A stretch of DNA of 64,000 nucleotides, taken from positions 10,735,722 through 10,799,721 of the forward strand of contig OZ037766.1 in the NCBI GenBank assembly GCA_964035545.1. Reading direction: 5' to 3'. Under the pieces are notes generated by a model, which was not told where the DNA came from, did not search any database, and saw only the letters and a program-made list of their open reading frames with translations. A program made the position numbers and the translations under genes. Origin of the DNA: Bugula neritina. Lineage: Eukaryota > Bryozoa > Gymnolaemata > Cheilostomatida > Bugulidae. Positions 19,401 through 22,400 of the stretch are shown piece by piece (within the stretch, counting starts at the first letter, position 1; every line of letters begins with the position of its first letter).

Positions 19401-22400
19401 TTCAAAGTATTAGAATCAAGAGGAAGATGTTAAATATGGGAAAGCTACTGTGGAGACAGTCGACTCAAGGCATGGGGATTTTCAGCAAGCAATGGCAACG
19501 ATTAGAAACTCAAACTTCCATTTTGTTTAACAAAGTTCAAATTGCATTTAAAACAAAAAATAGTTATGAAAAATTTGAGAAAGTAAAAACTTTCGCATTT
19601 AAATTTTAGTTTTCTTAGATTGGAAACTGTGCATCAACTTCCTTTGCAGAAGTTGAAAATAGCACTCATTAACTAAGTAGTTATAATGGTTATAGTGGCT
19701 ATAATAATTTTCCCCCTCCAGGGAAAAGTTCTGGAAATAATTTAACCCCGGCAGCGTGAGTATAGGTAACTGACTTGATGGCGGCTGACCTTTAGAGCTT
19801 AACCTCAGGACGCGTGGGTAGACTTTTTCAATTCTGGTCCCTTAATTTAACTACCTATTTTAGGTTATTTTAACGTTTACTGCTGCTTCTATATCAGAAT
19901 CAAATTGAGCCTATACATGAAGTAGAATTCGCAGGCCTAAATTACAGCATTATCACTTTCTGTGGGCCTCTTCCTACCCTCCCTTACAGGTTACTAATTT
20001 TAAAGCATTCTTCAATAACTAATAAAGAAGATAGAGCAACGTAAACAAATAAATAAATTAAATAAATAGAGCAACATAAAACAAATACTGGCAATTTTAT
20101 TCACCTTTTACCCTTTTCACATTTGTAGCTACCACTGTACTTTCCTCCAGACTGTACAAGCTCATAAATTTCTGGTATAGCACTTGCAAACATTCCCTGC
20201 AATACAAAATAAATCTTAATTAACTTTAAAGAATACAAAACATGTGAACTAATTGGTAATACCAATGCTATCTCAACCAGCTTCATTAAAATGCTATGAA
20301 AACTGGGAAACAAAGTTGGAGAGCAGAAAAAGTTATATTGTGCACAGAAGATCAAAAGTTTTGTTGCAAATAATTAAAATAGAATTGATCACTGTGTGTG
20401 TACATGTGTGTATATAATGTATATATAAATATTTTTTTCAAAATCAACTTTCAACTTGGATAGTTTCAAGATTAGATCACAATTTCACTAAAAATATGAA
20501 CAAACTGGGTGACACAAGCATGCATAAAATTGGCACTGGAAAACCATTAAAACTTATTATTCATAAACCCAAAATGGTAAATTTATCAGCATGGGTCACA
20601 GGGAACAAAAAAGGCAAAGCAAAAACATGCGGTATTTTAAATATTTGGAAAGTTTAGCTGGAGATAGTTAAATTTTGTGTAAATGAACGTTGTTTTATAT
20701 CATGGTATGTTATGATATACTAGAACTTATTTGTAGACAGCAGCAGACTAATGTTTATAAGAGCAGTCTTTGACCAATTTTGGGAAAATTAAATGACTTT
20801 TTCGTTTTCAGCTAAAGTGAATTCTTACTAGCATGTAAATTCAAAAGAGGGAATTATTTTTAAAGCATTTAAAATTATCAGCAACCAATGTTGATATCAT
20901 ATCACAAACTGATATCATCTCTCACATTGATATCATATCACACGTCCATCAGCTAAAACCAGTGATAACAACTCACTAGGTGAACTCCACAAAAAACTGC
21001 ACCCACCAAAGTTGCTTCAAACTAGAAAGAAGGGGAACGCGGCAAACGGCTGATGCTGGGCAAATATCGGCTGACGTCTAGCAATTACTCACCAAACCCC
21101 CAGTAATAATAAACAACATAAATATTCGTCCCATAGTAGTCTTACAGACAATATCGCCGTACCCAACTGTGGAAGAGGTTACGAGAATATAGTACGAACA
21201 TTCCCAGTAACCCAGTGTCTGTATATTTGGCGTCAACCTCCAGGGGTCGCCAGAGTTTTCACACTAGAAGATAACACAACATAACGTCAAATTCACTTGG
21301 TTTAGCTTAGGTACTTACCAGACCAAACATGATTATAAAGACCATGAAAAGTCTTCCCAGTGTTGTTTTACAGTATATATCACCGTAACCAACAGTTGTA
21401 GATGTTACCAACACAAAATATCCACATTCCCAAAACGTGAGGGGTTGGATGTTTGGAATGTGTAGCCAGGGATCACCAGTGTTCTCACACTGTAAGTAAG
21501 AAGTAGTATAGGTTAATATAACATTAAATAAGATATCATGATTTGATTTGTGTCTCTAACAAGTTCAATTTTTTGATAAGCAGTTGAGATTTTCCTTTTT
21601 CAGTATGAAATCAGCTTTGATAAATAATAGACTTGCTTTAGGGTTTAGTTCTTCTGCTTTTTAGTGACTAGTACTGAATTTCTAAAGCGATATGGAAATG
21701 AAAGTCTTTAAGCATTAATAAACTTTAATCTATGACATGTAACTGTGGCGGAGGTGTAGATTAGTGGAGACAGATAGACTGAGTGTGGAGGATACTCACC
21801 ATGTAGGAATAAATTACGCTAATTGCTAACTGAAAGGGCATCCACCCTTAAAGTCTCCTAGACTATATTTAAGTAAACCTTTCAAACTTGCCAGTGAGCA
21901 GATAAATTAAAACAATGCTGAATATTCTATCAACTTGTGATTTTTAGCTACTCAGAAAAGTATATATTACAAACTGGTGCATCAAAACACTTTTTAATAA
22001 TTTGGTACCATATGTTAGGAAGGGTATATATTGCTTTCTGGCCAGGGAGTTTCAGTACAACCCTAGAATTTTAGACTATGTTCTGTTTATATTTCAGGAT
22101 TCTAGGTAAAATGATTTGGTGTCAGAGCTTTGGTCCTGTCAACTATGATTTGGTAGACATTGATAACAGAGAAATTAAAATCCCTCTATCTATTGGAGTC
22201 ATTTTAGATATTTTATTTAAAACATCAGTAGTTTTTATTTCAAGATGAAAACAATCTATTCGATATTTCTATTTTAATTCTTAATATTACTACTAATTTT
22301 AAAACTGCTATATAGTTTGAATTAAAATTCCCCCATCTATGAAAGAGAGTAAAAAATAACAATGAACAGGACAATGGTGCATAGCCTAAGCAGCTGCATA

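Follow-up and report, generated by a model that had tools for sequence, protein, structure and literature searches.

A tandem, probably mutually exclusive pair of pore exons in a bryozoan slowpoke (BK channel) gene

Introduction

Throughout the animals, BK channels govern firing and muscle tone; what diversity they have is usually ascribed to cytosolic splice sites and accessory subunits. The window analysed here, a 64,000-nucleotide stretch of DNA from the bryozoan Bugula neritina, contains a slowpoke (slo1) gene in which two adjacent exons, 6a and 6b, each encode a pore loop, raising the question of whether a single BK gene could make two channels by choosing between pores. If so, no earlier BK channel, and perhaps no earlier single-domain K+ channel, would be known in which mutually exclusive splicing selects the pore loop.

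Results and discussion

The slo1 gene and its pore exons

The slo1 gene lies on the minus strand of the window (1343..37016) and consists of about 24 exons in addition to 6a and 6b; a tblastn search of the window with the Watersipora subatra protein P0002 gave 25 colinear exon matches between 37016 and 1343, including two weak ones (E 0.43). The first-pass annotation had named the gene slowpoke, an identity borne out by the Pfam domain BK_channel_a (PF03493), above cut-off at two exons, by colinear full-length similarity to Slo1 and by top PDB matches that are BK channels (5tj6 and others). Human KCNMA1 also matches the gene when used as query. The best-scoring full-length relative is a slowpoke-like protein from W. 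subatra, also a bryozoan, with 1805 bits and an identity of 76% across 64% of the query. The assembled protein and the colinear matches along the length of P0002 comprise an S0–S6 region with one pore, RCK1 and RCK2, the segments being named through alignment to known BK channels rather than by a domain search of each. Boundaries were set by splice sites and phase for 15 exons, namely the first 14 and the additional pore exon, and in these GT begins all 15 donors and AG ends all 14 acceptors.

Several repeats accompany the gene. A roughly 59-nt unit is present in about five copies in the intron between exons 3 and 4 (25880-26180), adjoining a plus-strand open frame from about 26090 that gives the impression of part of a transposon. 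Directly behind two other exons (4017-4106 and 3341-3427) the 5' splice site is itself tandemly repeated, in units of GAGTTAG/GTGAGT type and GTAAGTAA type, leaving several donor-like sites in succession.

The two pore exons lie between exon 5 (23481..23632, minus strand), which encodes S4-S5 and ends in GLVHL followed by gtaagt in phase 0, and exon 7 (20105..20196, minus strand), which starts in phase 0 and encodes the rest of S6 and the linker. Exon 6a (21319..21489, minus strand; acceptor ACTTACAG, donor GTAAGT) and exon 6b (21093..21263, minus strand; acceptor ATCTTCTAG, donor GTGAGT) are each 171 nt long and encode 57 residues, and are separated by a 55-nt GT-AG intron (21264..21318, minus strand). 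The lengths, phases and gap given in the first-pass annotation proved exact to the base. Each exon is open in one frame, begins and ends in phase 0 and has an intact AG acceptor and GT donor, and each encodes a complete pore loop, as had been claimed, with turret, pore helix, TVGYGD filter and the start of S6. The frames holding the two exons score 49.7 and 45.2 bits against the Pfam Ion_trans_2 domain (cut-off 22.5). The pair is thus adjacent, homologous, equal in length and phase, and intact at its splice sites. Identity between the exons is 70% at the protein level and 65.5% at the DNA level, their mutual match has E 2e-27 (tblastn, one exon against about 144 kb), and 6a is 80.7% identical to the pore of P0002. 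Loose tblastn within the 4-6 kb inspected around each pore exon revealed no third pore exon near the slo1 pore.

We consider 6a and 6b most likely to be a mutually exclusive pair, arising in a bryozoan-type slo1 gene by an old tandem duplication of the pore exon. Exon 5 would be spliced to either 6a or 6b and the chosen exon then to exon 7, so that transcripts would carry one pore exon at a time. Each product would be a complete BK subunit, the two differing in the turret, the outer pore mouth, the pore helix and the start of S6, and tetramers could mix 6a and 6b subunits. Joining both exons, or skipping both, keeps the reading frame, and either event would, as the first-pass annotation expected, give a product with two pores or none that is presumably non-functional. 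Since 171 + 171 nt remain in frame, decay of out-of-frame messages would not clear transcripts that included both.

Relatives carrying 6a or 6b types

The duplication was also looked for in related sequences, as the first-pass annotation had proposed. A query of 139 residues, spanning exons 5, 6b and 7, found 60 proteins at E <= 1e-3 among 76 candidates, and a query of 6a plus 6b found 69 proteins among 119 candidates, 18 of which were read individually and all of which were scanned by script. Altogether 248 proteins were scanned, nearly all from three similarity searches, 200 of them with a filter motif.

The order 6a-6b recurs in P0133, a 128-residue sequence with five members on nine contigs, which is a mechanical translation of contigs, known here from its protein letters. 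Its N-terminus, MVFIISAGL, is the end of a 6a-type exon; its middle, 52 codons (about 156 nt), is intron-like, with a V-S border of GTNAG type and a Q border of CAG type; and its C-terminal part is a whole 6b-type exon of 57 residues, 84% identical to 6b of the window. This recurrence, from other sources, bears on the suggestion that the second exon is an assembly artefact, to which we attach a negligible probability and in favour of which nothing emerged: at 65.5% DNA identity 6a and 6b are not a doubled assembly segment, and the divergence of the two exons together with their recurrence in P0133 led us to rule it out.

Separate 6a-type exons were found in P0002 and, through the query of 6a plus 6b, in P0182, P0183 and P0238. 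In W. subatra P0002 (named isoform X2 by NCBI) the 6a-type pore is spliced to exons 5 and 7, and this is the only spliced relative of the window gene type among the proteins examined. No spliced protein with a 6b-type pore was found among the 248 proteins, where clustering at 90% identity could hide one.

Inclusion of both exons in some transcripts would yield a subunit with two pore loops, perhaps dominant-negative or regulatory. The preserved frame would permit it, as would the roughly 156-nt stretch of P0133, which is itself open and in frame. Set against this, the product would have a split S6 and two pore loops lacking an intervening S5, 91 other introns estimated in this genome are all longer than the 55-nt one (see below), and none of the 248 proteins scanned contains two filter motifs. 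Among the 120 full-length Slo1 proteins listed of the 8000 scored, all 120 have the TV/TI-G-Y/F-GD motif exactly once. We regard joint inclusion as highly improbable, and return to the mutually exclusive pair as the preferred reading.

Two further observations came from the searches. P0195 and P0240 (JGI) are slo1-like pore exons that differ in sequence but share their boundaries, each listed with a single contig of 8,664 nt; another lineage may thus have a tandem pore pair of its own. A scan of viral contigs with exon 6b returned one locus, on a 395-kb viral contig (L044; 51% over part of the pore), which was set aside.

Age of the duplication and constraint on both exons

A second slo1 gene lies on contig C1 of the assembly (about 1.824-1.858 Mb), to which W. 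subatra P0003 aligns. It too is a BK gene, with a 171-nt pore exon that has the boundaries of 6a and 6b; however, a loose tblastn search of the 4 kb around this exon found no second pore exon, and the pore of the C1 gene and P0003 starts with VENSGD, not CEN as in the window gene. The two slo1 genes of this genome align with the two W. subatra slo1 proteins, P0002 and P0003, so that the duplication of the gene itself is probably older than both species.

Between 6a and 6b, third codon positions are 42% identical and second positions 82%, and dN is 0.24 with dS saturated (NG86), which points to both copies having long been kept under coding constraint after the duplication. In a phylogeny of 24 selected pore exons, in which the 57 residues allow modest support (given as SH-aLRT/UFBoot), the two 6b exons group together (94.7/97), as do the five 6a exons (74.5/88), and 6a and 6b together stand apart from the C1-type gene (87.3/91). 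This grouping, with the 6a-6b order in P0133, would place the duplication of the pore exon between the split of the slo1 genes and the split of species: it probably followed the former in bryozoans and preceded the separation of at least two species. By their dN, with dS saturated, both exons are constrained, and by P0133 and the tree the pair is present in another species; judged from these sequences, the duplication is old and has been kept by selection.

These data also weigh on the possibility that one exon, most likely 6b, is a silent relic and that transcripts use only the other. P0002, the sole spliced relative found, carries 6a, and a spliced 6b protein is absent among the 248 scanned, as this account would predict. 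It would nevertheless have to accommodate a 6b exon that is open, has intact splice sites and differs from 6a by a dN of 0.24 with saturated dS, and that shares 84% identity with its counterpart in P0133, retains the residues typical of 6b and sits beside that counterpart in the tree. A relic of that age should have decayed, and 6b is intact; we think a silent 6b unlikely, and a pair in which both exons are used remains the better account.

The 55-nt intron and the basis of exclusivity

The first-pass annotation had suggested that the intron between 6a and 6b is near or below the minimum size, which would keep the two from being spliced together. At 55 nt it is indeed below all of the 91 other introns in this genome whose sizes were estimated from the gaps between exon matches, some of these matches being weak or containing internal stops. 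The 91 comprise 23 introns of the window slo1 gene (minimum 124 nt), 18 of the C1 slo1 gene (minimum 347 nt) and 50 of myosin-head genes (minimum 89 nt), and the three shortest myosin introns, read base by base, are 89, 93 and 103 nt. Left out of the count were 4 of the 94 myosin matches, located on small, stop-rich contigs, neighbours separated by over 12 kb or with a profile gap or overlap above 25 positions, and 1 of the 24 gaps of the window slo1 gene, which spans 6b; the 18 matches of a search for the AMP-binding family were also left out of intron sizing. Uncounted introns inside matches measure about 213 nt in the myosin sample and about 140 nt in the C1 gene, and hidden introns of 50-70 nt were absent from the 90 myosin matches, in a sample that can miss very short introns splitting small exons.

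The only yTnAy-type sequence in the 55-nt intron is TTGAC (21286..21290, minus strand), a candidate branch point by pattern match only, whose A at 21287 lies 32 nt from the 5' splice site (the 6a donor) and 23 nt from the 3' splice site. According to passages of PMC7969005, the exclusive use of human OGDH exons 4a and 4b is imposed by branch points that lie 25-41 nt from the upstream donor, closer than a proposed limit of about 50 nt. The short intron and the candidate A at 32 nt thus make it plausible, by analogy, that a 6b branch point too near the 6a donor would block 6a-6b splicing here, though this is a weaker part of the proposed mechanism than exclusivity as such. The likeness lies in the position of branch points near the upstream donor of the intervening intron, although those of OGDH, in the same passages, were mapped experimentally and that of slo1 is a match to a pattern alone.

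The claim of a prohibitively short intron fares less well in P0133, where the corresponding stretch is about 156 nt and would be spliceable by the standards of this genome, in which introns of 89 and 93 nt occur. Intron length therefore cannot be the only, conserved cause of exclusivity. A variant of the mutually exclusive reading, whose odds overlap with those given to it above, would have the exons kept apart by regulators or RNA structure and not by steric block. That the short intron is not conserved argues for this variant; against it, the 55-nt intron is an outlier in its genome, and branch points like those of OGDH, 25-41 nt from the donor in the portions of PMC7969005 concerned, could act in a longer intron too. 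Nor did pairing of the 55-nt intron with the flanking introns, in the one genome analysed, rise above that of shuffled sequences, which equalled it in 18/60 and 10/60 cases. We would put exclusivity by regulators or RNA structure at slightly below an even chance.

Residues separating 6a from 6b

Comparison of five 6a exons (P0238 without its first 13 residues) with two 6b exons identified seven positions at which the two sets have no residue in common, the selectivity filter being identical in both. In human numbering, position 294 is Tyr in all five 6a exons and Val in both 6b exons, and position 286 is T in 6a and S in 6b. Position 299 is L in 6a and M or I in 6b, position 302 is L in 6a and I or T in 6b, and position 309 is M in 6a and T in 6b, with S in the 6a end of P0133; positions 265 and 273 also distinguish the two. 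Position 294 sets external TEA block in human BK. The choice between 6a and 6b may thus switch the outer-mouth aromatic ring (Tyr or Val at 294) and, with it, sensitivity to external blockers of the TEA type.

Val294 as a mark of 6b only was ruled out, since this genome's C1 gene carries it as well, as do the fragments P0136 and P0248. Among the 120 full-length Slo1 representatives listed of the 8000 scored, position 294 is Y in 48, F in 42, G in 21, A in 5, S in 2, N in 1 and C in 1, and Val in none.

The S6 glycine hinge was considered as the main functional difference and dropped. Position 310 varies within the 6a exons themselves, being F in 6a of the window, A in P0002, P0183, P0238 and the 6a end of P0133, and G in P0182, and half of the listed Slo1 proteins (60/120, of 8000 scored) read TFLVFFLLVGLA around this position, without the hinge glycine. 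The hinge is therefore not the headline difference between the two exons.

Comparison with known exclusive exons

The structure 3naf is that of the cytosolic gating ring. It is on this structure that exclusive-exon events of Slo1 are mapped in a figure legend of PMC9741552, passages of which describe three tandem exon events in fly slo and distinct ones in the human, fly and worm orthologues of KCNMA1; in those passages, then, tandem exon duplications recur in Slo1 genes. Excerpts from other papers describe a choice between exons 9 and 9alt at S6 and the linker in vertebrates (Soom et al. 2008, as cited in PMC11758846) and one between exons 2a and 2b, at the cytosolic face, in fly slo (PMC6025963). 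As far as these excerpts go, the exclusive exons of vertebrates, fly and C. elegans resemble 6a and 6b in being tandem homologous exons that alter channel properties. Nevertheless, the vertebrate 9/9alt pair swaps S6 and the linker, exon 9 corresponding by position, we infer, to exon 7 here, whereas 6a and 6b would swap the outer mouth, pore helix and filter region.

A closer parallel as regards the pore is NALCN, whose exons 15a/15b and 31a/31b are described in part of PMC3557258 as mutually exclusive tandem exons, each carrying a pore loop, as 6a and 6b do, and the pairs as ancient and shared by numerous invertebrate phyla. The NALCN protein is built of four homologous domains, and its exon choice swaps a filter residue (E/K), while in the K+ channel subunit encoded here the TVGYGD filter is constant and its surroundings change.

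The first-pass annotation knew of no well-described pore-exon choice in Slo1. This stands for exons over the filter, for which none was found in open-licence papers, but needs qualifying for Slo1 as a whole, in which exclusive exons are known at other sites. Among the open-licence papers listed, judged by titles, abstracts and passages, we found no report of a pore-exon choice in Slo1 or of channel splicing in bryozoans, and the pore-exon pair appears to be new.

More broadly, we give even odds to the proposal that some group of bryozoans obtains two channels from one BK gene through pore-exon choice, the pair being older than the divergence of at least two species and having been kept for switching the outer mouth (Tyr/Val at 294, Thr/Ser at 286) and the start of S6. 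If this is true, mixed tetramers would make conductance, gating and the response to external blockers graded. Natural interchangeable pores that differ at 294 would be a ready-made experiment on the variable pore residues of a working BK channel, and the pair would bear on the question of why Slo1 genes have repeatedly acquired tandem exon duplications.

Other pore loci in the assembly

Exact matches to TV/TI-GYGD number 29 in the 215.8-Mb assembly, 4 of them on small contigs, compared with 4 for a reversed control pattern. Exons 6a and 6b form the only same-strand pair of such matches within 250 bp, the next being 4.2 kb apart. The 60 matches to Ion_trans_2 include two other pairs within about 120 bp, one at 27.17 Mb on C1, in a single 337-aa frame, and one at 17.32 Mb on C2, in frames of 357 and 367 aa; both look like two-pore K2P genes. 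Pore exons of Kv type occur in clusters with a spacing of about 2-11 kb (C2:495334-499671, C4:17224313-17239798 and, as an opposite-strand pair, C7:12408883-12411474), which could represent genes or exons in tandem.

Contig C8 contains a slo-like gene of more distant kinship (C8:8062406-8062615), which we assign to the slo2 type as a guess. Its filter reads GYGD, where GFGD is usual in slo2 channels.

Some ciliates read TAA and TAG as Gln. Small contigs of the assembly, C188, C173, C64 and C115 among them, encode kinase and myosin domains with many in-frame TAA and TAG codons and few TGA, so that a ciliate associated with the animal has probably contributed contigs to the assembly.
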